Positions 48,051-63,620 of a stretch of 64,000 nt of DNA are shown in pieces; within the stretch, counting starts at the first letter, position 1; the number at the start of each line of letters is the position of its first letter. Under the pieces are notes generated by a model. It did no database searches. It was not told the origin of the DNA and worked only from the letters and a program-made list of their open reading frames with translations. This DNA is from an uncultured Bacteroidales bacterium. Lineage in GTDB: Bacteria; Bacteroidota; Bacteroidia; Bacteroidales; UBA932. Location: positions 79,879 to 143,878 of the forward strand of contig CAKUVD010000010.1 of NCBI GenBank assembly GCA_934695325.1. The letters run 5' to 3'. The translations under genes were made by a program, and so were the position numbers.

Positions 48051-49532
48051 TCAGAGATGACGTCCGCACAATTCCCGTGCAATTTTTCGGACGAGAAGCC
48101 CTAGACAGTTTCTCAGGCTGTTCATCGCGCCTCGCCTTATGAGCGTCAAATCCGGAGCCACTCGGTAGTCTTTCTGTCCGAACGCCGCATTCATCAGCGC
48201 GAATCTGTCTTCCAGTTCGAGGCTTGTGTAACGATGCACCGCGTCGCTGCCTTCTGCGTGCAGCCCTGCCGCATAAGCATTGACCTGGACCTTGTTCATA
48301 ATGTCCACGTGTGTCTTGCGCGCAAGGCGACTGCCGGCAAGTTCGTGCAGAGGGAAGTATTCATTGTCCCCCTTCGTCTCGTCAAACTTAGCCACCAGAC
48401 GGTCTATACCGCACAATTTCAGCAACTTGCGCAAGTCTTTATTATATGCTGACACAGGATATCCCGCCCGTCTGTCATTGAAACTGAATTTTGTCCTCAT
48501 CACGATGTCATAAGCCTGCCGTACCAGAGGAGTCCTGACTTCTGTCACGCTCTCCATTGACTTCAATGTCTTGCGCGGAATGTAATGGATGTATGGTATC
48601 CCTTCCGGAGACACGGAAACCCGGCTCATCGAAAATCTCAAGAAGTCTCCGATTCGCGCACCTGTGCAGCAGTTCAGGACGAATATGTCTCTAGCCGTCT
48701 GCAATTCACGCGGTACTTCGGCATTGAGCACCCGGAGGAGTTCCGCCTTGCGCAAGAAAAATGGCTCGTCGTACTTCTGCCTCATTATCGCCCTGTACCG
48801 CTCCGGTGAGATTCTGCGGAACGGAGACTTGAAATTCTCATCCGTACGCTCCAGTTCATTGAAAAAAGCCTTGAGGCCTTTCATCTCGTGCACTACCGTA
48901 TTCCCGGAGAGACGACGGGACGGATATCGGTTCCGGCTCTGTCTTACGTATAGTTCAGGATACAGCGATACATATCTGTATTCATCCGCAATGAATGCGC
49001 GGTACTCCATAAGCATCTTCATATCGAATTGGCCAGTGGACATACCCGTGAGACCCTTTATGTGAAGAAAGCGCTCCAGCCTCCGGAGAGTGGCGCTATA
49101 ATGCGCATAACGTCTCTCGCCGATGATGCCGTCACGGTGAGAGTCATCCATATAAGCGCTGAAGCGCCGGACAAGACTTTCCTCATCACCGCCATAGGAC
49201 GTCTCCTCGGACAGGCCTTCAGGGTTCAGTATTCTGTTCACCTCGTCCTGAAGACGACGGCTTCTCATATCCAAGCCTGCCGAGCTCATATTTTTTACGG
49301 CGCTCTTGATGGCCTCAATGTACTTCCCTATTTCGGCCGCCAATTCAGCATTGTATTCCTCGGTGTCCGGACGGACTGTTCCGTCAATCCTGAAAGGTCT
49401 CAGCTGCTCGTTAGGGATTCTCCGCCCTGTAGAATAATACATTGTCAAGGCTCGTCCGCCTGAGACTCGGAAACGCAGATTTGTGGTTCCACACGCCGAT
49501 GTGGTCCGGCAATAAAGTGTGATGCGATACAT
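48051..49532 (-). CDS. Tyrosine recombinase with atypical catalytic boxes
   Basis: I start at the ATG at 49532 (MYRITLYCRTTSAC), matching the usual N-terminal strand of Bacteroidota phage-integrase-like proteins, 493 residues. Box I arginine is present (NCCTGARIGDF). Box II reads SRLARKTH, with Arg where the H-x-x-R histidine normally stands. The nucleophile tyrosine is probably in VHRYTSLE; the box III H/W is not clear. SAM-like domain at ~150-280 (GERRYAHYSATLRRLERFL). Such recombinases in Bacteroidales invert DNA or integrate elements. It lies next to the capsule region, which suggests promoter inversion or an integrated element, but I found no inverted repeats. Confidence 0.8.
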   Translation of the reverse strand: MYRITLYCRTTSACGTTNLRFRVSGGRALTMYYSTGRRIPNEQLRPFRIDGTVRPDTEEYNAELAAEIGKYIEAIKSAVKNMSSAGLDMRSRRLQDEVNRILNPEGLSEETSYGGDEESLVRRFSAYMDDSHRDGIIGERRYAHYSATLRRLERFLHIKGLTGMSTGQFDMKMLMEYRAFIADEYRYVSLYPELYVRQSRNRYPSRRLSGNTVVHEMKGLKAFFNELERTDENFKSPFRRISPERYRAIMRQKYDEPFFLRKAELLRVLNAEVPRELQTARDIFVLNCCTGARIGDFLRFSMSRVSVSPEGIPYIHYIPRKTLKSMESVTEVRTPLVRQAYDIVMRTKFSFNDRRAGYPVSAYNKDLRKLLKLCGIDRLVAKFDETKGDNEYFPLHELAGSRLARKTHVDIMNKVQVNAYAAGLHAEGSDAVHRYTSLELEDRFALMNAAFGQKDYRVAPDLTLIRRGAMNSLRNCLGLLVRKIARELCGRHL

Positions 49533-49574
49533 ATTCCAAATAGTTTCAAAACAAGCTCTAAGATACGGTTTCAC

Positions 49575-50103: not shown

Positions 50104-50565
50104 CTTTTGCCAGGCTGCAATAGTTTGAGCATCAATCAAATAAACCCGTTATTTTCCGCATTCGCTCAACCGAAGCCAAAATCATCACGATAATGGGCAG
50201 CATCGGACACTTCTGCAACGCCACATCAGCTCATATCAAAGAACAATCCGTTGTGCGTAAAACATCCTCCGTTGTACAAGTTTTCAGCCCATTGCGCCTC
50301 AAAACTCCTGCAAGATACTCATATTTTCCGACTAATAAAAGAAGTGTTCTGCCTAACCCGTGAAATTTTCCAAGAAATCGAACGAAGACGAACATAAGTG
50401 TCCTCTCTGGCAATGACGCTTTTCATCGCTGAAAAACTATACTATTCAACCTTCAGAGAGCCCTTCATTTGACATCAAGACTCAATAATCTGTCATAATG
50501 TCGAAATTGATAAACTTGTCAAAAGCCCATACTAATCGTAAAATAAATCTAAACATTCATCTCCT
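50104..50565. other. Unannotated stretch before the membrane/caspase pair
   Basis: 462 bases without a convincing gene. Composition changes to AT-rich here, so the GC-rich stub ends at a junction near 50104. A short minus-strand frame at 50231-50413 has no recognisable content. A TTGACA (50469-50474) and CATAAT (50494-50499) with 19-nt spacing, and a TAAACTTG at 50511-50518, are the only promoter-like elements ahead of the downstream pair. Confidence 0.4.
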
Positions 50566-51363
50566 ATGTGTCGAACTAAACGGCGAAGAACTATTACGGA
50601 CTCTAACAGAAAGACATACCAAAAGTTCTTTGGAGTAGAAGATAGTGAACAATACCTCATCTATTATCAGATGGATGAGAAAAATGATACGGGATATATT
50701 GTATTCATAGATAATGAAGATGATCTTGATTACATAGATAAACGAGATAAATCAGACTGGTCTCCTGCTGACGTGCAGACATTTCATCGTAGTCTCGGTA
50801 AACTTCAGCAGGCAGAGGCAACGCCTATTTTAAATCTTTCCCATAAACACATCCTTGCTTTCAAGCAGATTTTAGGACGAGGATATCTACAGATATTGGA
50901 AAAGGACTTCTCAGATGTTGATTCTGTAATTAAAGATGCACTTAAATATTTGAAACAGAGAAATATTGAAGCTGCAAGGGAAATGATTCTTTGTGTTGCA
51001 GGTATACTCTCCCTTATCGTGGCTATACTTGGTTTATCCTTATATTTTATTGGTAATCGAAACTTGTGGTTTTACGGAATATTATTTGGCATACTTGGCG
51101 CATTTGTATCTATTTGGACACGCTATGGGAAAGAGGAAATGACAGGTCTTGCTTCTAAATCCTTACATTTCATGGAAGCAATTTCAAGATTGTTTATAGG
51201 AGCAATCGCGTCTGTAGTAACCATGTTTGCCATACGAAGCGGTTTCATGCTCGCAATAGGAGAGTCTGATAGTTTGTTTTTTCTCTATTGCATATTTGGC
51301 TTCGCAGCTGGCTTCAGCGAAAGATTACTTCCATCACTTATTGAACGTATAATTGAAAAATAA
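50566..51363 (+). CDS. Four-TM membrane protein coupled to a caspase-like protease
   Basis: A 265-residue protein: residues 1-140 are soluble, acidic and mixed in fold, and four hydrophobic segments follow at about 141-163, 167-185, 207-229 and 236-252. The end reads GFAAGFSERLLPSLIERI; a GFSER-type motif recurs, as I recall, in a loosely defined family of bacterial four-TM proteins, but I cannot name it. No gasdermin, SLATT or toxin motif is evident. The following caspase-like gene starts one base after its TAA, so the pair is translated together. I infer the membrane protein is the effector, acting or being cut at the membrane. AT-rich, clearly unlike flanking genes. Confidence 0.7.
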   Translation: MCRTKRRRTITDSNRKTYQKFFGVEDSEQYLIYYQMDEKNDTGYIVFIDNEDDLDYIDKRDKSDWSPADVQTFHRSLGKLQQAEATPILNLSHKHILAFKQILGRGYLQILEKDFSDVDSVIKDALKYLKQRNIEAAREMILCVAGILSLIVAILGLSLYFIGNRNLWFYGILFGILGAFVSIWTRYGKEEMTGLASKSLHFMEAISRLFIGAIASVVTMFAIRSGFMLAIGESDSLFFLYCIFGFAAGFSERLLPSLIERIIEK

Positions 51364-51364
51364 T

Positions 51365-52096
51365 ATGAGACGTAAAGCATTACTTATAGCCAATCTGGAT
51401 GCCGTTGGCTCACAAAATGACATAAATAATTGGAAGAAATTTCTTCTAAGTGGTCGAGGTGGAGCTTGGAGAGAAAATGAAATAATGGTATTAACTAATC
51501 CTTCAAAAAACAGCTTAAATACCGTTCTTTGTTGTATAAAAAACAGTGGCTATGATTTTATAATTGTTGTATATGCTGGGCATGGTGGTTGGAAACGATC
51601 AACAATTTTAGAAATCAACCCAGATTGCGAAACGATAGGCGAAAGAGACCTAAAAGGATTGTCGTCTAGAGAAATCTTAATTCTTGATTGTTGTCGCGCC
51701 ACGAGTACAGAAACGTACATTCTTGATGAATTGCAATTGAAACTATTTTCTGATAGTATTCGTTCTGATATTCGTATCAGATATGATGCCAGAATATTGC
51801 AAGCAATTGAACAGCAGGTTACGTTATATGCGTGTGGCATAGGAGAATGTGCTTATTGTTCTAATAACGGAGGTTATTACACGAAAAACTTATTAACTCA
51901 AAGCGCCATAATCCCCCCTCATAATGAGTTCAAGACAATCAATCAAGCTCATACTGCTGCTGCGATAGCAACCACATTGGAAGTTTGGGAAAAAGAGAAG
52001 AAAAATCAACATCCAAATATATCTGTGGCAAGATGCCTTTCATCCCAGCAGCTAATTATTAGTATAGATACATCAAAGTACGGCATTGCTGAATGA
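51365..52096 (+). CDS. Caspase-like (peptidase C14-type) protein
   Basis: I start at the ATG at 51365, one base after the upstream stop; a TTG at 51353 is less likely. The 243-residue protein is a single caspase domain. The catalytic pair is visible: VVYAGHGGW (His73) and LILDCCRA (Cys110, D-C-C-R as in metacaspases). Before these is RRKALLIANLDAVG (the p20-like first strand) and later TLYACGIGECAY. No sensor, TPR or other domain is fused, so the membrane protein or a host factor must supply recognition. Caspase-like proteases act in several bacterial abortive-infection systems (for example with gasdermins). A defence role is inferred. Confidence 0.8.
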   Translation: MRRKALLIANLDAVGSQNDINNWKKFLLSGRGGAWRENEIMVLTNPSKNSLNTVLCCIKNSGYDFIIVVYAGHGGWKRSTILEINPDCETIGERDLKGLSSREILILDCCRATSTETYILDELQLKLFSDSIRSDIRIRYDARILQAIEQQVTLYACGIGECAYCSNNGGYYTKNLLTQSAIIPPHNEFKTINQAHTAAAIATTLEVWEKEKKNQHPNISVARCLSSQQLIISIDTSKYGIAE

Positions 52097-52183: not shown

Positions 52184-53563
52184 ATGCACCAATTCAAAGA
52201 CATTCAAATAGCCGTGGCCGGCACCGGATACGTAGGCCTCAGCATCTCGACACTCCTCTCACAGCATCACAAGGTGACAGCTGTGGACATAATCCCCGAG
52301 AAAGTCGAGAAAATCAACAACCGTATCAGTCCCATTCAGGACGAATATATTGAGAAATACTTCCGAGGCGAATTTGGGGACTACGAGAAGACCGGTGGCC
52401 CGAGCAAGTTGAACCTTACCGCCACTCTTGACGGTGCAGCAGCCTACAAGGACGCCGACTTCGTGGTGATAGCCGCCCCGACCAACTACGATCCCGAAAA
52501 GAACTACTTCGACACCCACTGCATAGAGGATGTCATAGACCTTGTTCTCAGCGTCAACCCGGACGCCGTGATGGTCATCAAGTCAACCATCCCTGTCGGC
52601 TACACCCGCAGCCTCTACGTCAAGTATGCCCTGAAGTTCCTCACTGATCCGGCACTCCAAGGCAAGAAGTTCAACCTGCTTTTCTCCCCGGAATTCCTCC
52701 GCGAGAGCAAGGCTCTCTACGACAACCTCTATCCGTCAAGGATCATTGTCGGCTATCCCGATATCCTCCCCTCCGACCAAAACAAGAAGTGGGACGAGGA
52801 GAACGCCGCCATCAACGCCATAGGCAATCCAGAGGCCAAGGAATATGCAAGGACGTTCGCCGGACTTCTTCAGGAGGGCGCGACCAAGGAGAACATCGAC
52901 ACGCTCTTCATGGGCATGAAAGAGGCGGAGGCGGTAAAACTCTTCGCCAACACCTACCTCGCCCTGCGTGTTAGCTACTTCAATGAACTGGACACATACG
53001 CTGAAATCAAAGGTCTTGACACGCAGGCCATCATCAAAGGCGTTGGGCTTGACCCGCGAATCGGCACTCACTACAACAACCCATCCTTCGGCTACGGCGG
53101 CTACTGTCTCCCGAAGGACACCAAGCAGCTCCTGGCAAACTACAAGGATGTTCCAGAAAACCTGATTCAGGCGATCGTCGAATCGAACAGCACGAGGAAA
53201 GACTTCATCGCCGACGCCGTGCTTCACAAGGCAGGCTACTACAGCAGCAACGGCCAGTGGGACAGCTCTAAAGAGCACACATGCGTGATAGGCGTATATC
53301 GCTTGACAATGAAGTCCAACTCCGACAACTTCCGACAGAGCTCGATTCAGGGCGTGATGAAGCGCATCAAGGCCAAGGGTGCGGAGATCATAATCTACGA
53401 ACCGACACTTGAGGACGGCACGACATTCTTCGGCTCCACAGTCGTAAATAACATTGACGAATTCAAGTCCAGGAGTCACGCCATCATTGCAAACCGCTAT
53501 GACTCATGCCTTGATGATGTGAAGGACAAGGTATATACTAGAGATATTTTCAGGAGAGACTAG
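52184..53563 (+). CDS. UDP-glucose/nucleotide-sugar 6-dehydrogenase
   Basis: A 459-residue dehydrogenase. The Rossmann loop [10 protein letters not shown] is at 11-20, then VIAAPTNYD, the catalytic-lysine region [12 protein letters not shown], and the nucleophile cysteine in [14 protein letters not shown]. The C-terminal domain is the UDP-binding part. It oxidises UDP-glucose to UDP-glucuronate (or a similar sugar) for capsule. The gene starts 87 nt after the caspase-like gene and is followed by an epimerase 2 nt later. GC-richer than the preceding pair, closer to the chromosome average. Confidence 0.9.
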
Positions 53564-53565
53564 CG

Positions 53566-54642
53566 ATGGTAGAATATAATATATCACTTGATGGCAAGAC
53601 AGTTCTCGTGACTGGGGCTGCCGGTTTTATTGGCTGCAATCTCGTAAAGAGGCTGCTCAAAGAATTTAAAACCATCAAGGTCATCGGAGTAGATTCCATC
53701 ACTGATTACTACGATGTCAATATCAAATACGGGCGTCTGAAGGAAATCGAAAACCTCGGCAAAGACTGGACTTTCGTCAAAGCAAACATTGCCGATAAAG
53801 CCGCTGTCAATGAACTTTTTGAAAAGTATCACTTCTCCGTGGTTGTCAATCTTGCAGCTCAGGCCGGAGTTCGATACAGTATCACAAATCCTGATGCCTA
53901 CATCGAGAGCAACCTTATAGGATTCTATAACATCCTTGAAGCTTGCCGCCATCACGAAGTCGAGCACCTTGTATATGCCTCATCTTCAAGTGTCTATGGC
54001 TCGAACAAGAAAGTTCCATACTCAACAGATGACAAGGTGGATAATCCTGTGAGCCTCTATGCCGCCACGAAGAAAAATAACGAACTGATGGCACATGCCT
54101 ACAGCAAGTTGTACAATATCCCATCTACAGGTCTACGCTTCTTCACGGTTTACGGCCCAGCAGGACGACCTGATATGGCCTACTTCGGTTTCACGAATAA
54201 GCTGGTCAAAGGCGAAAAGATAAAGATCTTCAACTATGGTAACTGCAAGCGTGATTTCACCTATGTGGACGACATCGTTGAAGGGGTTGTCCGTGTGATG
54301 CAGCACGCTCCTGAAAAGAAGACAGGAGAAGACGGGCTTCCTATCCCACCATATAAGGTCTACAACATAGGCAACAACCATCCTGAAAACCTGCTTGAAT
54401 TCGTCAATATCCTTCAGGAAGAACTTGTCAGAGCTGGGATCCTTCCTCAAGACTATGATTTCAATGCCCACAAGGAACTCGTCCCGATGCAGCCAGGCGA
54501 TGTTCCTGTTACTTATGCTGACACCACACCATTGGAGCAGGATTTTGGGTTTAGGCCGAATACTGATTTGAGGCATGGACTGAGGGCTTTTTCAGAATGG
54601 TATTGCAAGTATTATCAGATGAGAGAAGATAATAACCATTGA
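53566..54642 (+). CDS. NAD-dependent sugar epimerase, probably UDP-glucuronate 4-epimerase
   Basis: A 358-residue short-chain dehydrogenase. NAD loop TGAAGFIGCNL at 17-27, catalytic serine region SSSSVYGSNKKVPYS, YAATKKNNE with the Y-x3-K pair, and RFFTVYGPAGRPDMA. This last block and the pairing with the UDP-glucose dehydrogenase match UDP-glucuronate 4-epimerases that supply galacturonate. Start 2 nt after the preceding stop. A UDP-glucose 4-epimerase is the main alternative. Confidence 0.85.
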   Translation: MVEYNISLDGKTVLVTGAAGFIGCNLVKRLLKEFKTIKVIGVDSITDYYDVNIKYGRLKEIENLGKDWTFVKANIADKAAVNELFEKYHFSVVVNLAAQAGVRYSITNPDAYIESNLIGFYNILEACRHHEVEHLVYASSSSVYGSNKKVPYSTDDKVDNPVSLYAATKKNNELMAHAYSKLYNIPSTGLRFFTVYGPAGRPDMAYFGFTNKLVKGEKIKIFNYGNCKRDFTYVDDIVEGVVRVMQHAPEKKTGEDGLPIPPYKVYNIGNNHPENLLEFVNILQEELVRAGILPQDYDFNAHKELVPMQPGDVPVTYADTTPLEQDFGFRPNTDLRHGLRAFSEWYCKYYQMREDNNH

Positions 54643-54709
54643 GCCGCTCTCGATAGATTTATAGAATCATAACAAATAGCATGAACTAACATAAAATTGA
54701 TGATAGTCA

Positions 54710-55774
54710 ATGAAAATAGGATTAATAACATTTCATGACACGACAAATTTTGGTTCCCTGCTTCAAACATATGGATTATATAAGAAAGTAGTGGAATTAG
54801 GCTTTGATATTGATGTTATAAACTATCAATGTAAGAGCATTGTACGGAGAGAAATACCACAACCTTTTAAATTGTTCCAAAGTCCGAAAAAAATCATCAA
54901 GGATTTGCTGATTGGTTCTGTAAATCGCCGAAAACATAGAGCATTATTGAGATTTCTACAGGATAACATGACTTTGAGTCCAATTTGTAACTTGGACACC
55001 GTAAGTAATATCTCGTCCAATTACGACAAACTGATTATAGGAAGTGATATTGTCTGGGGCATGGATATAACAGAAGGAGACTTGACATACTTTCTTAATT
55101 TTGAAACCAACAGATATAAAAAAAACGCTTTTTCCTCATCAATCGGCAATCCTTGGAGTGAACAAGATAAAATGAAGATAAAGCCCTTATTAAAGGATTT
55201 TAACTATATCGCTGTTAGGGAGGATGAATCGGCAGATTGGGTCGAAGAACTAACTGGTAAACGCCCTGAAGTTGTTTGTGATCCTACAATGTTAATCAAT
55301 AGTGATGAATGGCTTAAATTTACATATCAAAGAGAAGATAAAAAAAACTATGTTTTAGTTTATTTTGATAACAATAATGGCGATTGTCTGTCATCTGCCA
55401 TCAGTTTTGCTAAAGCTCATAATCTGAAAGTTAAATACATAAACTATGGCTTACCTAAAAGAGGCGTCCAGAATATAATGCCGACTTCACTAGAAGATTT
55501 TCTATCTTTAATTAATGATGCCGCTGAAGTCATTACTGCTTCTTATCATGGGATGTTGTTTTCTATCTATTTCAACAAGCAATTCATTTACTATAATCGT
55601 GCACATAAATCTCGGATGAATACTCTTGCTCGAAGGATGAATGTCCAAGATTGCGATGGAGAAGGAAAAGATATCCTTCAAATTCCTGAAATTAATTATT
55701 CGTTGGTAAATAAATCCGTGGAAGCATACAGGTCGTATTCTGTTAAATGTTTAAAAGATTTGCTTCAGTTATGA
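54710..55774 (+). CDS. Polysaccharide pyruvyl transferase family protein
   Basis: A 354-residue protein with the PF04230 opening (KIGLITFHDTTNFGSLLQTYG) and later blocks DKLIIGSDIVWG and AAEVITASYHGMLFSIYF. It is predicted to add pyruvate ketal groups to capsule sugars from phosphoenolpyruvate. From here onward the locus is AT-rich. Its stop overlaps the next start by 4 nt (ATGA), and a Fe-S protein next door is a frequent partner of this family in capsule loci. Confidence 0.88.
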   Translation: MKIGLITFHDTTNFGSLLQTYGLYKKVVELGFDIDVINYQCKSIVRREIPQPFKLFQSPKKIIKDLLIGSVNRRKHRALLRFLQDNMTLSPICNLDTVSNISSNYDKLIIGSDIVWGMDITEGDLTYFLNFETNRYKKNAFSSSIGNPWSEQDKMKIKPLLKDFNYIAVREDESADWVEELTGKRPEVVCDPTMLINSDEWLKFTYQREDKKNYVLVYFDNNNGDCLSSAISFAKAHNLKVKYINYGLPKRGVQNIMPTSLEDFLSLINDAAEVITASYHGMLFSIYFNKQFIYYNRAHKSRMNTLARRMNVQDCDGEGKDILQIPEINYSLVNKSVEAYRSYSVKCLKDLLQL

Positions 55775-56979
55775 TTGAAATATGCAAATACGATGAATGT
55801 ACTGGTTGCTCTGTTTGCCGTGATGTGTGTCCTAGACATTGTATTACAATGATAGCCGATGAAATGGATGCTTGCCACCCATTTGTCAATAATGATATAT
55901 GTATTGATTGTAACCTTTGTCGTAAATCTTGTCCGAACAATAGAAAACTTGAATATAATTATCCACAAAAAGTCTGGGCAGCATGGAGCAATGATCCCAA
56001 AGTCCGATTAACCTCAGCTTCTGGTGGTATTGCCTGTGAACTATATAAGTACTGGCTTCGCATTGGCGGTGTGGCTGCTGGAGTAGTGTATGAACGTCAC
56101 GAGGGATGCCATTTCGTCTTGATCGAAGACGAGAATCTACTTAAAGATGTGCAAAACTCGAAATATACATTTAGCGACACCGCTGGTATTTATAAGGCTG
56201 TAAGGGAAAAATTACAGTCTGATGTTCCGGTTCTTTTCGTTGGTGTGCCTTGTCAGGTTGCAGGTCTATATGGTTTCTTGAAGAGAACCTATTCAAATTT
56301 GACAACTATCGATATTATCTGTCATGGAATGCCTCCATCCGCATATCTTGAACAGCATATATCAAGAATAGAAAAGAGGCGAAAAGAGCATGCAGATAAA
56401 CTGTTCTTCCGCGATCCAAAGTACTATACATATACATTTACATTTACATTATATAATGTCGCCTCTAAATTATTCTATAAAAGGAAGGTGTTAGGCACTG
56501 ATAATTATCAGTTAGGGTATCATCGAGCTTTAATTTATCGCAAGAATTGTTATCAATGTCATTATGCACGTAATGAAAGAATAAGCGATTTGACTTTGGG
56601 GGATTTTTCCGGTTTGGGAAAACTTGCACCTTTTGAAGGGGATATACATAATGTTAGTTGCGTTTTGCAGAATACAGACAAAGGCGCGTCTTTACTATCG
56701 GAACTCGGTAATAAAATATACAAAGAAGAACGTCCGATAGATGAAGCGTTAAAATACGAAACCCAACTGCATAGTCCTTCTGTCAAGCATCCGTCTCGAA
56801 AAGTTTTCGAGACGGAATACAAGAGAAATAAAGACTTTGAAAGAGCCGCAGGTGCTTCATTGAAGCAAGATAAAAGGAGTGCATTAATTACTAAACTTAC
56901 GATAGGAATGAAGAAAGCCGTTCGTATAGTTTTGCCAGAGATGCTAATACTACAATTTAGAAGATTATTAGCAAGATAG
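55771..56979 (+). CDS. F420 hydrogenase/dehydrogenase beta-subunit-like Fe-S protein
   Basis: I start at ATG 55771 (MIEICKYDEC), an ATGA overlap; an ATG at 55747 is in frame but overlaps more. Two 4Fe-4S ferredoxin clusters are visible at the N-terminus (CTGCSVCRDVCP and CIDCNLCRKSCP), followed by the FrhB N- and C-terminal domains (SASGGIACELYKYW; CYQCHYARNERISDLTLGDFSG). In capsule loci this protein accompanies pyruvyl transferases, presumably reducing or oxidising a sugar; its electron donor is not known. Confidence 0.87.
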   Translation: MIEICKYDECTGCSVCRDVCPRHCITMIADEMDACHPFVNNDICIDCNLCRKSCPNNRKLEYNYPQKVWAAWSNDPKVRLTSASGGIACELYKYWLRIGGVAAGVVYERHEGCHFVLIEDENLLKDVQNSKYTFSDTAGIYKAVREKLQSDVPVLFVGVPCQVAGLYGFLKRTYSNLTTIDIICHGMPPSAYLEQHISRIEKRRKEHADKLFFRDPKYYTYTFTFTLYNVASKLFYKRKVLGTDNYQLGYHRALIYRKNCYQCHYARNERISDLTLGDFSGLGKLAPFEGDIHNVSCVLQNTDKGASLLSELGNKIYKEERPIDEALKYETQLHSPSVKHPSRKVFETEYKRNKDFERAAGASLKQDKRSALITKLTIGMKKAVRIVLPEMLILQFRRLLAR

Positions 56980-56987
56980 AATACGAT

Positions 56988-58538
56988 ATGGTAGTCAATC
57001 AAAATTCGAGATTAGTAAAGAATACTATATTTCTCTCTGTCAGAATGATATTTGTGATGTTTGTGTCACTATATACATCACGAGTCTTTCTTCATGCATT
57101 GGGTGTCGAGGATTTTGGAATCAATAATGTGGTCTGTGGCTTTGTTTCGATGTTTAGTTTTCTGAACACTTCATTAGCTAATGGCATTCAACGGTTCTAT
57201 AACTCAGAAATGAGCGCATCTGGTGATGATGGTGTGAATGCGGTTTACAACACATCCTTATTTATCCAAGGGTGTATAGCAATCATTATTATAATCCTTC
57301 TAGAAACTGTAGGTTTATGGTACATAAATAATAAGATGGTTATACCTATCGACCGTATGAACACAGCCATATGGATATACCAATTCAGTGTAATATCATC
57401 GGTGATAGTCATCATGCAGACTCCTTTTTCCGCCGTCGTTATGGCTTATGAAAAAATGAATTACTATGCTGTTGTTGGCATAGTGGATGTCTTATTGAAG
57501 TTGACGCTAGCCTTGACAATTCCTTATGTAAAAGGAGATCATCTATTATTCTATGGGGCTATTATGTTATGCATATCCATCATATCGTTAATCATGTATG
57601 TTGGATATGCAAAATTTAAATTCAAGCCTATAGTCATTAATTTCAGAATCCAGAGTGGTCTTCTTAAGAGAATGATTGCCTTTTCCGGATGGAATTTCTT
57701 TGGGACATTTGCCTGTATGGCGCGTGAACAAGGACTGAATATGGTGCTTAATTTATTTTTTGGTCCAGTTGTGAATGCCGCGCGAGGAATAGCATATCAA
57801 GTCTCATCTGCATTGCAGGGTTTTGTCTCAAATGTTAGTGTGGCAGCCAAACCACAGATGGTATCTTCTTATGCAGAAGGAAATAAAGAGCGTACCCTTG
57901 GCTTAATGTATAGCATGAGTAAGTTGAGTTTTTTCATCCTCTACATTATGGCCATACCCGTATGTCTTGAGATAGACTATATCTTACGAATATGGTTAGG
58001 AGATGTTGTTCCTGAGCATACGGCTAACTTTGTGGTATTGGTTATACTTGCAAATTTTATGAATAACCTTAATGCTCCTTTGTCAAACGTCGTCTATGCA
58101 ACTGGAGAGATGCGAAACTATGAAGTCACATTCGGGATTTTAAATATTATGATAATACCTGTCGCATATATAGCCTTAAGAATAGGATGCCCTCCAGAAG
58201 CTGCTTTTGTCTCTTATTTTGCAATGGCAATTCTTGTGCAGGTTGCAAGTTTATTAGTTCTCCGAACGATTACGAGTATATCTTTAAAGAATTATTTTTT
58301 TAAGTTATGTTGTCCGCTTGTGGTCTTTTCAGTTGTTGCTTTGCCTTTGCCTTATCTCACATATTTATTATTGCCTTCTGGATTTTTCAGATTGACGTCC
58401 GTTACTGTCATGACCATCATAGTTTCTTCTGTCCTGTTTTATTGGATAGGATTGAATCTAAAGGAAAAAGAAATTGTAGTAAATTATATTCATAAGATTA
58501 GCGAACATGGCGTTAAGAAATATTTTAAAATCCGATAA
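56988..58538 (+). CDS. Wzx-type polysaccharide flippase
   Basis: A 516-residue membrane protein with about twelve to fourteen spans and the MATE/polysaccharide exporter plan (LVKNTIFLSVRMIFVMFVSLYTSRVFLHALG at the start). RSFFHALGVEDFGINNVV-like turn and the central FGTFACMAREQGLNMVLN loop are typical of Wzx/RfbX proteins. It flips undecaprenyl-linked repeat units across the inner membrane. It overlaps the polymerase gene by 32 nt. Confidence 0.88.
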   Translation: MVVNQNSRLVKNTIFLSVRMIFVMFVSLYTSRVFLHALGVEDFGINNVVCGFVSMFSFLNTSLANGIQRFYNSEMSASGDDGVNAVYNTSLFIQGCIAIIIIILLETVGLWYINNKMVIPIDRMNTAIWIYQFSVISSVIVIMQTPFSAVVMAYEKMNYYAVVGIVDVLLKLTLALTIPYVKGDHLLFYGAIMLCISIISLIMYVGYAKFKFKPIVINFRIQSGLLKRMIAFSGWNFFGTFACMAREQGLNMVLNLFFGPVVNAARGIAYQVSSALQGFVSNVSVAAKPQMVSSYAEGNKERTLGLMYSMSKLSFFILYIMAIPVCLEIDYILRIWLGDVVPEHTANFVVLVILANFMNNLNAPLSNVVYATGEMRNYEVTFGILNIMIIPVAYIALRIGCPPEAAFVSYFAMAILVQVASLLVLRTITSISLKNYFFKLCCPLVVFSVVALPLPYLTYLLLPSGFFRLTSVTVMTIIVSSVLFYWIGLNLKEKEIVVNYIHKISEHGVKKYFKIR

Positions 58539-59799
58539 GTTGCTATTGGTGACTTACATAATACTTATTGCTCTACTATTGTTCGCTAGAGATGTGTTAA
58601 GTGTCAGCGTAGGTAAAAATGTGTTCATAGTGCTCGTGATTGTATTCTCATTTATGATGAAATACGAAAATCTGTTATCATTGATACTTTTTACGCTGCC
58701 GTTAATGTGGGGATTACCCGGAAACTATTTTTTGCCTATATGGTGTTTATTAGTGTCGTACCATCAGATTCAGCATAAGTCTTTTCGTGTTTCCACATTA
58801 TATTTTTGGCTCCTTATTGTAATTTGGGAGATTACTATCTCCGGTTTTTATCCTTTTCAATCGTCTGTTATAAGCTATTTGGGATATTTCTCCGCATTGT
58901 TTTTAACATTTTTTCTAATTGCGGAGAATAGAAATATCGATTACAAGACACCGATATTGTGCTTTTGTATAGGATGCTGTGTTTTGCTTGGAGTTATTCT
59001 TATAATGTATTTAAATAATCCTGCAACGATGTATACGGACGGTGATGTCCGTATGGGGGGTGATATGTATATTGAACAATCAGGAATGACACTAAAGACA
59101 AATGCCAATAATATTGGATATATATCAGCCGCATCGCTTGCTTGCACATTCGCGATGTTTTATTATAGAAAAATAAAGCTCTTTATGTTCTTTGCTTTAG
59201 CAGGAGTGTCTTTTGTATGTGGAATATTCAGTGTTTCCAGAACGTGGGCATTATCATTGGTCCTTCTGCTTATGATATATTTTATATTCCAAAAAAAGAA
59301 TAAGAAGAGCGGATATATAATGCTGTGTGTGGTTGTGCTATTGGGGATTTACTATTTTTCCAAAAATCCCGTTATGCTAGATGCGTTTATATCAAGATTT
59401 ACGGGAGATAACATTGAAACTGGAGGTGAACGTACAGTATTGTTCTCACTATATAATCAATTCTTGTCTGACCATCCAATTAATCTTGTTTTTGGTACAA
59501 GTGCTCAACTATATAAAGAAGTAACTGGTATTTATCATTCTACTCATAATAGTTTGCAACAGATTTGGATGAGCTATGGAATTATAGGTTTCATATTAAT
59601 ATTAACGTGTTATTTAATCTCGTTGAAGAAGAATTGGGCCAAGAATGAATATATGGCTTGCATGCCAATGTTAATTATTGTGTTCTTTCTACAGACCATC
59701 CAGATATTGAATCCTTATAATGGTTTGTATCCTGTAATAACTGCTTTCTTTATAATGAAGATGGTTAAACAAGATCAAGTTTTAGTTGGAGCAAGATGA
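58507..59799 (+). CDS. O-antigen/capsule polymerase (Wzy-like)
   Basis: A 430-residue protein with ten to eleven predicted spans and a large periplasmic loop. The HN motif of Wzy polymerases appears as STHNSLQQIWMSYG near 350. It joins repeat units in the periplasm. Sequence is otherwise very divergent, as usual for Wzy. It overlaps wzx by 32 nt and the next gene by 4 nt. Confidence 0.82.
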   Translation: MALRNILKSDKLLLVTYIILIALLLFARDVLSVSVGKNVFIVLVIVFSFMMKYENLLSLILFTLPLMWGLPGNYFLPIWCLLVSYHQIQHKSFRVSTLYFWLLIVIWEITISGFYPFQSSVISYLGYFSALFLTFFLIAENRNIDYKTPILCFCIGCCVLLGVILIMYLNNPATMYTDGDVRMGGDMYIEQSGMTLKTNANNIGYISAASLACTFAMFYYRKIKLFMFFALAGVSFVCGIFSVSRTWALSLVLLLMIYFIFQKKNKKSGYIMLCVVVLLGIYYFSKNPVMLDAFISRFTGDNIETGGERTVLFSLYNQFLSDHPINLVFGTSAQLYKEVTGIYHSTHNSLQQIWMSYGIIGFILILTCYLISLKKNWAKNEYMACMPMLIIVFFLQTIQILNPYNGLYPVITAFFIMKMVKQDQVLVGAR

Positions 59800-60884
59800 G
59801 AATATTGTTTTATATCCACGGGATAACTGGCGGTGGTGGCGAGCATGTGTTGGCTACATTGGCTAATGAGTTTGTTAGGCAAGGTGAGGACGTTAGCATA
59901 GCAACTGACATCAATTCTCCTTTTGCCTATTCAATAGATGACGGTATTCACCTATATGATTTGTACAAAGGAACAAGCCATTTTAGCCATTGGACCTCAA
60001 GAATACGGAATTCTTTTTTATTGCGAAGAAATGTTCGCAGTATTGCTAAGGCTGACCGTCCGGATGTGATAGTCGCTTTCATGTCATCAATGGGTTGTAC
60101 TGTGATAATGTCAACACTCGGCTTGGGGATTCCTGTGGTTGTCTCTGAACACACTAATGTATCAAGAAAATTAGGTGAGGCATTAGACATAAAAAGAAAT
60201 ATCTTATATCCTTTGGCGACGTGTATCACAGTGCTTACTCATTATGATAGAAGTATATGGGTGAAAAAGTATCGCAATGTAGTTTATATGCCAAATCCGG
60301 TTTCTCTGAAAGAAGCGAATCCTAATATTAAAAAAGAGAAAACAGTCATAGCTGCCGGTAGAGTGAACCAATGGGAGATAAAAGGTTTTGATAATCTTAT
60401 AAGATGTTGGGCGAATATATGTCATGTCTATCCCGATTGGACTCTGAAAATAGCGGGGGATGCAGATAGTAAGTCCAAAGAGTATCTAAATGGACTTGCC
60501 CATGAACTTGGCTGCTGTAACTATGAGTTCCTTGGCTTTAGGAAAGATATTCATGAATTAATGTCTAGGTCAGAGGTGTTCTGTTTATCTTCACGTATAG
60601 AAGGATTACCAATGGTGCTTATTGAGGCTATGAGTGCAGGATGTTGTTGTGTTAGTTTTGATGTCATGACTGGCCCTAGAGAAATTATACAAGATGGCAA
60701 AAGCGGTCTCATCGCGAAAAATCAGAATAATGATGACTTGGTATTGTGTCTAAAAAAAGTGATTGGTAATGAAGAACTTCGTCGTAGATTAGCGGAAAAT
60801 GCGCCTCTGTCAATAAAAAAATACTCGACTGAGAGGGTTGTGAATCGTTGGTATATATTATTCAATAAAATATTAAAAAGATGA
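59796..60884 (+). CDS. GT4-family glycosyltransferase
   Basis: A 362-residue GT-B enzyme. The N-terminal domain begins with ILFYIHGITGGGGEHVLATLA, and the C-terminal domain has the GT4 E-x7-E signature in EGLPMVLIEAMSAG near 270, with TGPREIIQDGKSGLI as the nucleotide-binding tail. It transfers a sugar from a nucleotide donor to the growing lipid-linked repeat; specificity unknown. Starts with a 4-nt overlap to the polymerase. Confidence 0.9.
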   Translation: MRILFYIHGITGGGGEHVLATLANEFVRQGEDVSIATDINSPFAYSIDDGIHLYDLYKGTSHFSHWTSRIRNSFLLRRNVRSIAKADRPDVIVAFMSSMGCTVIMSTLGLGIPVVVSEHTNVSRKLGEALDIKRNILYPLATCITVLTHYDRSIWVKKYRNVVYMPNPVSLKEANPNIKKEKTVIAAGRVNQWEIKGFDNLIRCWANICHVYPDWTLKIAGDADSKSKEYLNGLAHELGCCNYEFLGFRKDIHELMSRSEVFCLSSRIEGLPMVLIEAMSAGCCCVSFDVMTGPREIIQDGKSGLIAKNQNNDDLVLCLKKVIGNEELRRRLAENAPLSIKKYSTERVVNRWYILFNKILKR

Positions 60885-61747
60885 AGTTATTTGATCTTAT
60901 ACGAAGATATAAATGGGATTTGGGAATAGCTCTGGAAATAGAAGGTCATAGCTATGATGCTCCAAAATGGAATTTTCACATAGTGCGTGCTCCAAAGAAT
61001 AAATGGTATGCTGATCCGTTTATTTTAGACGTTACGGCAGAGGAAATTATTGTGTTGGTCGAAGAGTTTACTTACAGCGTAAATAAAGGACGACTTGCAA
61101 AGCTTGTTATTGATAAAAACTCTTACAAGGTGAGGAGTGAAAAGATAATATTAGAATTGACGACACATCTTTCTTTTCCGGCGATATTACGTATAGGTGG
61201 GAAAATATATATATATCCTGAGAATTCCGCTTCTGGGAGAAGTATTATCTACAGCTATAATCCGGATAATGATGCTATTTCGATATTAAATACTCTTTGT
61301 CATTTACCGTTAACAGATGCAGTCATTACTGAAATTGATGGACATAACTATATGTTCTCGACTAAAATACCAATACAGAATGGTCATGAATTAACTGTAT
61401 ACGAAGCAAATGAAAAGACTGACGATTACAAGGCCGTACAGACAATAACTTTACCAGATAACACTGCCAGGAGTGCAGGAGATTTCTTTATGGATGGTAA
61501 TAGGATTATACGTCCAGCCCAAAACTGTAATGGTGGGTATGGCGTAGGCATAGTGTTTCAGGAAGTATTCCAAGAAGATAACGGCCAATTTGTTCTCAAA
61601 GAGATGTATCGAAAATTCCCTCCAGATGATTATATAGGAATGCACACATATAATCAATATAAAGGATATACTATTGTAGATCTTCATATAAGACGTTATC
61701 CATTCTTACATAAAGTGCTTCAAAAAATCAGACATTCAATAAAATAA
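60881..61747 (+). CDS. Beta-propeller-like glycosyl accessory protein
   Basis: A 288-residue cytosolic protein with WNFHIVRAPKNKWYADPFILD and later SFPAILRIGGKIYIYPE, TDAVITEIDGHNYMF and RSAGDFFMDGNRIIRPAQN. This pattern matches the glucosamine-inositolphosphorylceramide-transferase-like (five-bladed) domain found in many capsule clusters, often as a fused or separate partner of glycosyltransferases or formyl transferases. Catalytic residues are not defined. Start overlaps the GT4 gene by 4 nt (ATGA). Confidence 0.65.
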   Translation: MKLFDLIRRYKWDLGIALEIEGHSYDAPKWNFHIVRAPKNKWYADPFILDVTAEEIIVLVEEFTYSVNKGRLAKLVIDKNSYKVRSEKIILELTTHLSFPAILRIGGKIYIYPENSASGRSIIYSYNPDNDAISILNTLCHLPLTDAVITEIDGHNYMFSTKIPIQNGHELTVYEANEKTDDYKAVQTITLPDNTARSAGDFFMDGNRIIRPAQNCNGGYGVGIVFQEVFQEDNGQFVLKEMYRKFPPDDYIGMHTYNQYKGYTIVDLHIRRYPFLHKVLQKIRHSIK

Positions 61748-61752
61748 TTATT

Positions 61753-62277
61753 ATGTTAAATCCATTAAGACGGCTCATTGATTTTTACTGGAGATTTATG
61801 GTGTCACCGGAAAGATATCTACGACATATAGGAGTCAGCATTGGTGAGAACTGTTTTATATCTACTCGCGAAATATCAAGTGAACCATATCTGGTGACTA
61901 TCGGTAATAATGTCCAGATAACGCGCGGTGTTTCAATACATTGCCATGGGGGGGGGAATGCCATAAGGAAATATTATCCAGATTTCGATGTCTTTGGAAA
62001 GGTGGTTATTGAAGACTGGGCGTATATCGGCGCTTTTTCGCAGATTATGCCTGGCGTGACCATTGGAGAAGGAGCAATCGTTGCGGCTGGCAGTATCGTC
62101 ACAAAGTCGGTAGCTCCACATACAGTTGTTGGCGGTAATCCCGCAAGAATAATAGGAACTACACAAGAATACATTCAACGCAATCTAAAATATAACTTAC
62201 ATAGCAAAGGAATGTCGAAAGAAGAAAAGCAAAAGTTCTTGATGTCGCTTCCCGATGATAGATTTATAAAAAAGTGA
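61753..62277 (+). CDS. Hexapeptide acetyltransferase with G9 tract
   Basis: A 174-residue left-handed beta-helix acyltransferase: hexapeptide turns start at ISTREISSEPYLVTIGNNVQI and continue through VVIEDWAYIGAFSQIMPGVTIGEGAIVAAGSIV, ending GGNPARIIG. The catalytic histidine is in IHCHGGGNAIRKY. Just there is a run of nine G residues (61948-61956; codons GGG GGG GGG). It acetylates a capsule sugar, using acetyl-CoA. A run of nine can change length by slippage and would shift the frame in the middle of the enzyme, so expression is probably phase-variable. Five-nt gap from the preceding gene. Confidence 0.88.
   Translation: MLNPLRRLIDFYWRFMVSPERYLRHIGVSIGENCFISTREISSEPYLVTIGNNVQITRGVSIHCHGGGNAIRKYYPDFDVFGKVVIEDWAYIGAFSQIMPGVTIGEGAIVAAGSIVTKSVAPHTVVGGNPARIIGTTQEYIQRNLKYNLHSKGMSKEEKQKFLMSLPDDRFIKK
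61948..61956 (+). repeat. G9 homopolymer inside an acetyltransferase gene
   Basis: Nine consecutive G in an AT-rich gene, reading CAT GGG GGG GGG AAT. In this window the only comparable coding run is the A7 in the DUF3244 gene. Length is now in frame, so this copy is ON. Confidence 0.85.
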
Positions 62278-62347: not shown

Positions 62348-63620
62348 CTTGGTAAAAATTAAGACCTTTTGACGAGGTAATTCCACTTTGACAATACTGT
62401 TTGGAAAACGACACTTTTCTTAAGAGTGCCATCATAGGATTCGTCAATCAATCTTTGTATATCATAAGTTTTGTCATTGATGTCAACATACACTGTAAGT
62501 CCTTTAGATGTCGTGGTTTCGGCAGCCTGTCTGGCTGCATCCTCGAGTGATAGGAGCGGAGCTCCTCTCCAGCTTCGGGTTATCTGCGAGAACAGTCTAT
62601 GCTCTATGGGATTGTGTTTTGAACAATATAGAGGGTAATGCATAACAAGAAGATTCATATCAAGTTTGGAAGCAAGATCCATAATGTCCTGCTTGACAAT
62701 GCGATGGGAGCTGGAGTTGGAACCTCCGCCATCGCACAGAACGACTATGGTATTTGCGTCAGGATACTGTGCCCGCAGGTGCCGGTTCCATACCCTTTCT
62801 ATATTGTCGCAGACAAATTTGGAGGTGTCGTGACTCGTGCCTATCGTCATATAGCCCACATTCTTTGTCACATCGTAGATTCCGTGAGGGACAATCTGAC
62901 CATCGGAGAATGTCCCGAAATCGTGGTCAAAAGATTTCGGCTGACCAAGCGCCAAGACTTTTCCGTCCCTTTTGAAGTTCCCGATGAGTTCCTTTTTCTT
63001 CGTGTCAATGCTGATTATGGGAAGGCCTATCGCAGATGCCTTTTCCCTGACGTCTGCAATATTCAGAAACTGAGCGTCCCTGTCCTTGACATCCTTCATG
63101 GGAAGATCTTTTTTGAAAGACCGATGTCTGTATCCCATCCGCTTAAGCATTTGTCTGACAAGATATTCGGACACATTGCATCCCTCCTTGGACATCTCAC
63201 GAGTAATCATAGGCACGCTCAAGGATATCCAGACGACATCTCTGTCTTGAGGAAGACCGGCAGTGTGAGGTTCAATGACCAATTTGAGTGTTTCAAACCA
63301 TTCAGGATGCTTGTTCAGTTCCTGCTTTCGTCCTCCGCCAGGTCGACGGATGCTTCCTGGTTCAGGAGCATAACCGGAATTGATTTCATCAATGGAACTG
63401 TAAACTGTGTTTTTGCTCACGCCGAAAAATTGACTAACTTTGTCCACGCCGCGTTTACCCAAGGCGAGAGCCTCAGTTCCGAGATATTGTCTCTTCTGGT
63501 ATTCGTTGAGCGTAGACATAAACAACTTCTTTTGGGTTGTAAGCACTTCTGGAGGAGTTTTCGTAATCATTTAAAATACCTTAGGAAAGTATTTAAAGTT
63601 ACTAAATTTTCTCCAGTTTT
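62345..63620 (-). mobile_element. ISAzo13-family insertion sequence
   Basis: A transposase gene with imperfect terminal inverted repeats: AACTTGGTAAAAATTAAG (62346-62363) and, at the other end, the complement of AAACTGGAGAAAATTTAG (63602-63619), 13 of 18 identical. Exact outer borders and target duplication are not clear. It truncates a capsule gene. Confidence 0.75.
62359..63570 (-). CDS. ISAzo13-like transposase
   Basis: A 403-residue transposase with an N-terminal helix-turn-helix (GVDKVSQFFGVSKNTVYSSI), a basic GGGRKQ linker and a DDE domain of the Rhodopirellula/ISAzo13 type. The acidic triad is visible: IISIDTKKKE, VVLCDGGGSN and NPIEHRLF. The stop codon overlaps the left terminal repeat. 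The frame is intact, so the element may be active. A later ATG (18th codon) could be the start. Confidence 0.9.
   Translation of the reverse strand: MITKTPPEVLTTQKKLFMSTLNEYQKRQYLGTEALALGKRGVDKVSQFFGVSKNTVYSSIDEINSGYAPEPGSIRRPGGGRKQELNKHPEWFETLKLVIEPHTAGLPQDRDVVWISLSVPMITREMSKEGCNVSEYLVRQMLKRMGYRHRSFKKDLPMKDVKDRDAQFLNIADVREKASAIGLPIISIDTKKKELIGNFKRDGKVLALGQPKSFDHDFGTFSDGQIVPHGIYDVTKNVGYMTIGTSHDTSKFVCDNIERVWNRHLRAQYPDANTIVVLCDGGGSNSSSHRIVKQDIMDLASKLDMNLLVMHYPLYCSKHNPIEHRLFSQITRSWRGAPLLSLEDAARQAAETTTSKGLTVYVDINDKTYDIQRLIDESYDGTLKKSVVFQTVLSKWNYLVKRS

Follow-up and report, generated by a model that had tools for sequence, protein, structure and literature searches.

Described systems related to the T-C pair

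Among described systems, the EACC1-caspase system (System 4 of Kaur et al. 2020, PMC7159879) comes closest. In it, a membrane-protein gene is followed by a caspase gene, and the membrane component is proposed to sense while the caspase is activated and acts. EACC1 carries one transmembrane (TM) helix, its caspases carry varied C-terminal effector domains and the system is reported mainly from actinobacteria. The gene pair analysed here, T-C, lies in a window of 64,000 nucleotides (the whole stretch of DNA that was analysed) from an uncultured Bacteroidales bacterium (Table 1). It shows the same layout, with a 5' gene for a small membrane protein (T) and a 3' gene of the caspase superfamily (C). 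However, T has four predicted TM helices instead of one, C is a bare protease domain of 243 aa without fused effector domain, its score against the EACC1-associated caspase subfamily (NF047832) is 25 bits for a cut-off of 140, and the pairs are found in Bacteroidota and Bacillota. T-C is not a member of the EACC1-caspase system; by analogy, it may work in a similar way.

In bacterial gasdermin systems, a protease gene adjoins the gene for a membrane-acting protein, as in T-C. Unlike gasdermin, T is a multi-TM protein without gasdermin match in Pfam up to E 10, as the first-pass annotation of this DNA had stated, and its partner is a caspase. EACC1 is not matched by T in Pfam at this threshold either. 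YLATT (PF20303, YEATS-like-associating three TM) is part of predicted immune systems and, like T, is a small multi-TM domain. In eight genomes carrying T or T-like genes, PF20303 does not match at T, its cut-off is passed in none (0/8), and its five weak hits are located away from T. AbiL (AbiLi-AbiLii) and PDC-M41 (PADLOC names) are neighbours of T-C in two loci (L009 and L007), but their proteins differ. No PADLOC model matches T or C (0 families each), in agreement with the earlier proposal of a pair undescribed among defence systems, and no description of it was found in the literature searched, a search that left out preprints and most subscription papers. Since the same pairing occurs in distant bacteria among capsule or antivirus genes, T-C probably represents a bacterial device, so far undescribed, with self-destruction or defence as its candidate function.

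Table 1 Features of the window at and around the T-C pair
Feature	Coordinates	Strand	Basis and remarks
Truncated capsule-type gene (stub), junction of the T-C segment	49794..50123	+	Polysacc_synt_2, profile positions 1-97 of 293
Stretch from stub to T	50124..50565	.	Without caspase remnant or Bacteroidota-type promoter match
T, 265-aa membrane protein	50566..51363	+	ORF call, AlphaFold model, hydropathy, alignment
C, 243-aa stand-alone caspase-family protease, His73/Cys110 dyad	51365..52096	+	Profile, alignment, fold; ATG at 51365, stop at 52096
Polysaccharide genes, same direction as T-C	52184..62277	+	Pfam

The two proteins

A single base separates the T stop from the C start, and the two reading frames are those of the first-pass annotation. 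T has the predicted architecture given there, a soluble N-terminal half followed by a second half composed mostly of TM helices. The AlphaFold model (mean pLDDT 85.1) includes a small beta region (residues 28-58), two soluble helices (67-84 and 93-111) and further helices at 118-161, 167-186, 198-224 and 236-250, with four predicted TM segments and hydropathy maxima near 142-156, 174-176, 209-223 and 235-246. The GFSER motif is present (residues 249-253), and 12 further residues follow it. Conservation is strongest in the TM2-TM3 loop and the GFSER end. In the window protein and its close relatives, the N-terminus forms a disordered, basic tail.

C matches Peptidase_C14 (35.1 bits, cut-off 21.4, E=1.5e-8) and a caspase fold is predicted, which bears out its description as a caspase-like protease. 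The dyad is intact and the residues are as described (His73 in AGHGG, Cys110 in DCCR); the catalytic His and Cys are invariant across the 56-row alignment. Proteolytic activity of C is predicted. At E<=0.001, T has matches in 73 protein clusters and C in 56, the window's own counted in both cases; these numbers and the conserved alignments rule out chance ORFs.

A conserved but patchy two-gene unit

We compared 14 T loci, namely the window, one locus of genome G448 (L066) and 12 loci obtained by scanning species genomes (L001-L012). In eight of them (window, L001-L005, L007 and L009), a caspase gene lies next to T. The remaining six (L006, L008, L010, L011, L012 and L066) carry no adjoining caspase of this profile; for G448 the caspase search was limited to the 13-kb stretch around T. 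T is flanked by a caspase on both sides in L001-L003, and two caspases lie behind T in L004. The second caspase of L001 (10806-11507, behind T) lacks both the catalytic His and Cys and is a probable pseudo-caspase. When the 12 genomes of L001-L012 were searched entirely with the caspase profile, 11 hits were obtained in seven genomes, all 11 beside T, and none apart from T at E<=0.001. In the protein database, six T/C cluster pairs have equally long longest contigs, which suggests, without being proof, that the members of each pair stem from the same contig. Distances between T proteins and between C proteins are correlated over 11 pairs (r=0.86, permutation p=0.0001), but only weakly over the five closest pairs (r=0.30). 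Two T proteins are 97% identical while their caspases are 68% identical which, together with the latter correlation, indicates that the caspase changes faster or gets swapped. T and C as a conserved, tightly spaced two-gene unit are supported by these data.

The unit is accessory and patchy. In the order of L003, seven of 393 genomes match the T profile (one close match, the seed, five remote T-like proteins and one false match), and in the family of L004 three of 301, two of which were previously in the set. The seed genome alone matches in three genera (90, 91 and 61 genomes). A broad T profile matches two of 291 genomes in the class of L007 (the seed and one weak, frame-broken match) and seven of 249 in the phylum of L008, seed counted. 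With the caspase profile, one of 200 genomes (the seed) and two of 297 (the seed and one weak match) are found; in this separate search of 297 genomes, the weak hit (G829, E 6.8e-4) lies within a 473-aa frame. T has no match in the viral contigs, phage records or plasmids searched, nor has C in the viral contigs or phage records. A caspase about 31% identical to C is carried by Leptospira plasmids (5 records).

The polysaccharide setting

In the window, T-C lies between a stub that is truncated, as previously annotated, and genes for a UDP-sugar dehydrogenase, an epimerase, a pyruvyl transferase, an FrhB-like protein, a flippase-like protein (outside the Pfam scan), Wzy_C, a glycosyltransferase and a hexapeptide transferase. 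The pair had been regarded as an AT-rich insert. This is correct relative to the stub and the downstream sugar dehydrogenase (GC 0.368 for T and 0.367 for C vs 0.603 and 0.528). However, the capsule genes at 54710-62277 are as AT-rich as the pair (0.362), so base composition does not separate T-C from the capsule operon.

Contrary to the view of the first-pass annotation that the pair is a stranger to polysaccharide loci, Pfam identifies polysaccharide genes adjoining or near T in 5/6 Bacteroidota loci, a count that is not blind because the neighbours scanned were picked after reading the loci. Besides the window, these neighbours are Polysacc_synt_C (L002), a glycosyltransferase, EpsG and Bac_transf (L003), a flippase and an acyltransferase (L004), and a glycosyltransferase and PIG-L (L066). 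L001 is the one locus outside polysaccharide genes. A first control (5/6 loci vs 2/35) was discarded as circular, its queries being drawn from these same loci. With 27 E. coli K-12 polysaccharide proteins as queries independent of the loci, matches are obtained in 3/6 Bacteroidota T loci vs 1/35 control stretches at E 1e-5 (p=0.007) and vs 2/35 at E 1e-3 (p=0.017); the test is insensitive, as it misses L002 and L004 and detects only the epimerase in the window. Control stretches were taken from G001-G004 and G448 by contig number, hence not at random; of 40 requested, 37 were obtained, and the 35 that reach 13 kb were used, which are slightly longer than the tested stretches. The capsule setting of T recurs, and may correspond either to functional linkage or to hitch-hiking in a recombination hot spot. 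At 6298-7946 of L066, a tandem pair of T genes lies inside the polysaccharide cluster, without adjoining caspase of this profile.

T-C might accordingly serve the capsule itself, as a membrane-bound protease controlling polysaccharide assembly or switching with no role in defence. In addition to the Bacteroidota counts and the E. coli query test, this possibility draws on the similarity of the gene preceding T in L004 to the capsule antiterminator UpxY (E=4.5e-15, although its 56 bits fall short of the cut-off of 100), and on a NeuB gene about 4.3 kb from the caspase-less T of L011. However, the Bacillota pairs L005, L007 and L009 show no polysaccharide match in the tested flanks (0/3) and two of them adjoin defence genes, L001 lies elsewhere, and hitch-hiking is enough to explain the setting because capsule loci are exchanged by recombination. 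We consider a pure capsule function unlikely.

Defence genes and remote relatives of T

Co-occurrence outside capsule loci, as anticipated by the first-pass annotation, is observed in Bacillota, where known defence genes adjoin T-C in two of the three pairs (PADLOC scan of Bacillota, Leptospira and remote neighbours). In L009 (Enterocloster), T (from 9965) and C come directly after AbiLi (E=3e-91) and AbiLii (E=6e-21, ends 9960). Upstream of the L007 pair lie a type I methyltransferase/specificity fusion (E=5.7e-97) and PDC-M41A (1.9e-70). L005 has weak defence-like neighbours only. On the two Leptospira plasmids inspected, L039 and L040 (3544-7075), the C-related caspase is placed between a short hypothetical gene, with one hydrophobic stretch by eye in L040, and a downstream ResIII helicase gene; L039 also carries a Shedu gene at a distance of about 4 kb.

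Remote T-like proteins have mainly the TM region and a GFSE(R/K/N) motif in common with T. One follows a gene in which eCIS-core (E=6.3e-31) is fused to a caspase (E=8e-13; L063, 3468-6314); the same fusion gene is cut short in L026. Others lie beside AbiLi/PDC-M38A-like and PDC-M38B-like genes (L024 and L061), a patatin (L064), alpha/beta hydrolases (L056 and L060) or DUF5675 (L028). Among T genes without caspase, an amidase_2 gene is found one gene off in L006 and on the opposite strand in L012, and a weak GH19 match (22.5 bits, cut-off 25.5) farther upstream in L008. Many of these enzyme neighbours may be due to chance. If they are not, T would be a membrane component that stays constant while the enzyme varies. 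At 4430-7120 of L061, the T-like gene forms a single run with the AbiLi/PDC-M38A-like ATPase and PDC-M38B-like genes, possibly a further defence operon.

These relatives bear on the two-gene toxin/protease originally suggested, of which the conserved two-gene unit stands. Its other part, in which the caspase would act as a trigger by cutting T, and cut T would open the membrane as gasdermins do, though with an unrelated pore, is consistent with the adjacency of the two genes, the TM-rich second half of T and its disordered, basic N-terminal tail. However, the six T loci without adjacent caspase and the remote T-like proteins beside non-proteases argue against it, as does a conservation that peaks at the presumably cytoplasmic loop and GFSER end and not at a cuttable-looking loop. 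A general membrane partner fits the varied enzyme neighbours better than a dedicated caspase-cut toxin, which appears quite improbable. A role of T as partner of, or immunity protein against, secreted or injected hydrolytic effectors, C being one of them, would agree with the eCIS-core/caspase fusion, patatin, DUF5675, amidase_2 and weak GH19 neighbours, several of which may be chance, but is very unlikely given that C consists of the protease domain alone and that the scan of window genes at 50.5-62.3 kb plus flanks recognises no injection-system gene.

A proposed sensor and executioner

We propose that T is a sensor or anchor and C an executioner, forming one accessory membrane-protease module, a reading to which we give about an even chance. 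T would reside in the inner membrane, and the soluble half, the conserved TM2-TM3 loop and the GFSER end would all face the cytoplasm. It would hold the caspase at the membrane and respond to an envelope insult or a phage product. Once activated, the caspase would cleave proteins of the cell, perhaps C-terminal to basic residues in the manner of metacaspases, and the cell would be stopped or killed. The two caspases per T seen in several Bacteroidota, once with a dead copy, would permit pseudo-protease control. The module would be carried as cargo by capsule operons in Bacteroidota and by defence islands in Bacillota.

This sensor and executioner scheme is supported by the caspase adjacency (8/14), the position of all caspase hits beside T (11/11), the invariant dyad, the caspase fold, and the AbiLi-AbiLii genes (L009) and methyltransferase fusion with PDC-M41A (L007) ahead of T-C. 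The T-like proteins beside other enzymes suggest that T is the constant part, and the EACC1-caspase layout, for which membrane sensing and caspase activation are proposed, is counted in favour. Against it are the T loci without caspase (6/14), the polysaccharide setting (5/6 Bacteroidota loci), the weak correlation among close pairs (r=0.30), and the lack of T or C in the viral contigs and phage records and of T in the plasmids searched.

If the scheme is true, a caspase-based module with an unnamed membrane partner joins the bacterial roots of programmed cell death, and such a module is tied to the capsule, which is the receptor for many gut phages. The dead caspase of L001 would be a bacterial parallel to pseudo-caspase control. 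In a wider and more speculative form, which we regard as unlikely, capsule operons of gut Bacteroidota would incorporate a caspase execution module. Each capsule type would then have an envelope sensor and a suicide protease of its own, sometimes together with a dead-caspase brake, and T would be the first to be described among a large family of membrane adaptors with GFSER, which would couple various hydrolytic effectors to the inner membrane in different phyla. The pair is small, bicistronic and readily testable in laboratory strains.

Immediate surroundings of the pair

A lost upstream caspase was considered for the window and rejected, as tblastn with 10 locus caspases returns C and nothing elsewhere below E 0.2. 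The 64-kb window contains no tRNA gene, and inspection by eye gives no convincing repeats flanking the pair. Around the pair, six sigma-70 promoter-like sites are found vs 7.5 expected, and no terminator vs 1.1 expected. The Bacteroidota-type promoter consensus occurs seven times in the window vs 1.1 expected, with none between 34.8 and 63.4 kb. An integrase-like gene (Phage_int_SAM_5, E=7.6e-6) is located ahead of the capsule stub (48051-49574, - strand), and an ISAzo13-type transposase gene (DDE_Tnp_ISAZ013, E=6.9e-88) directly behind the capsule operon (62359-63570, - strand).
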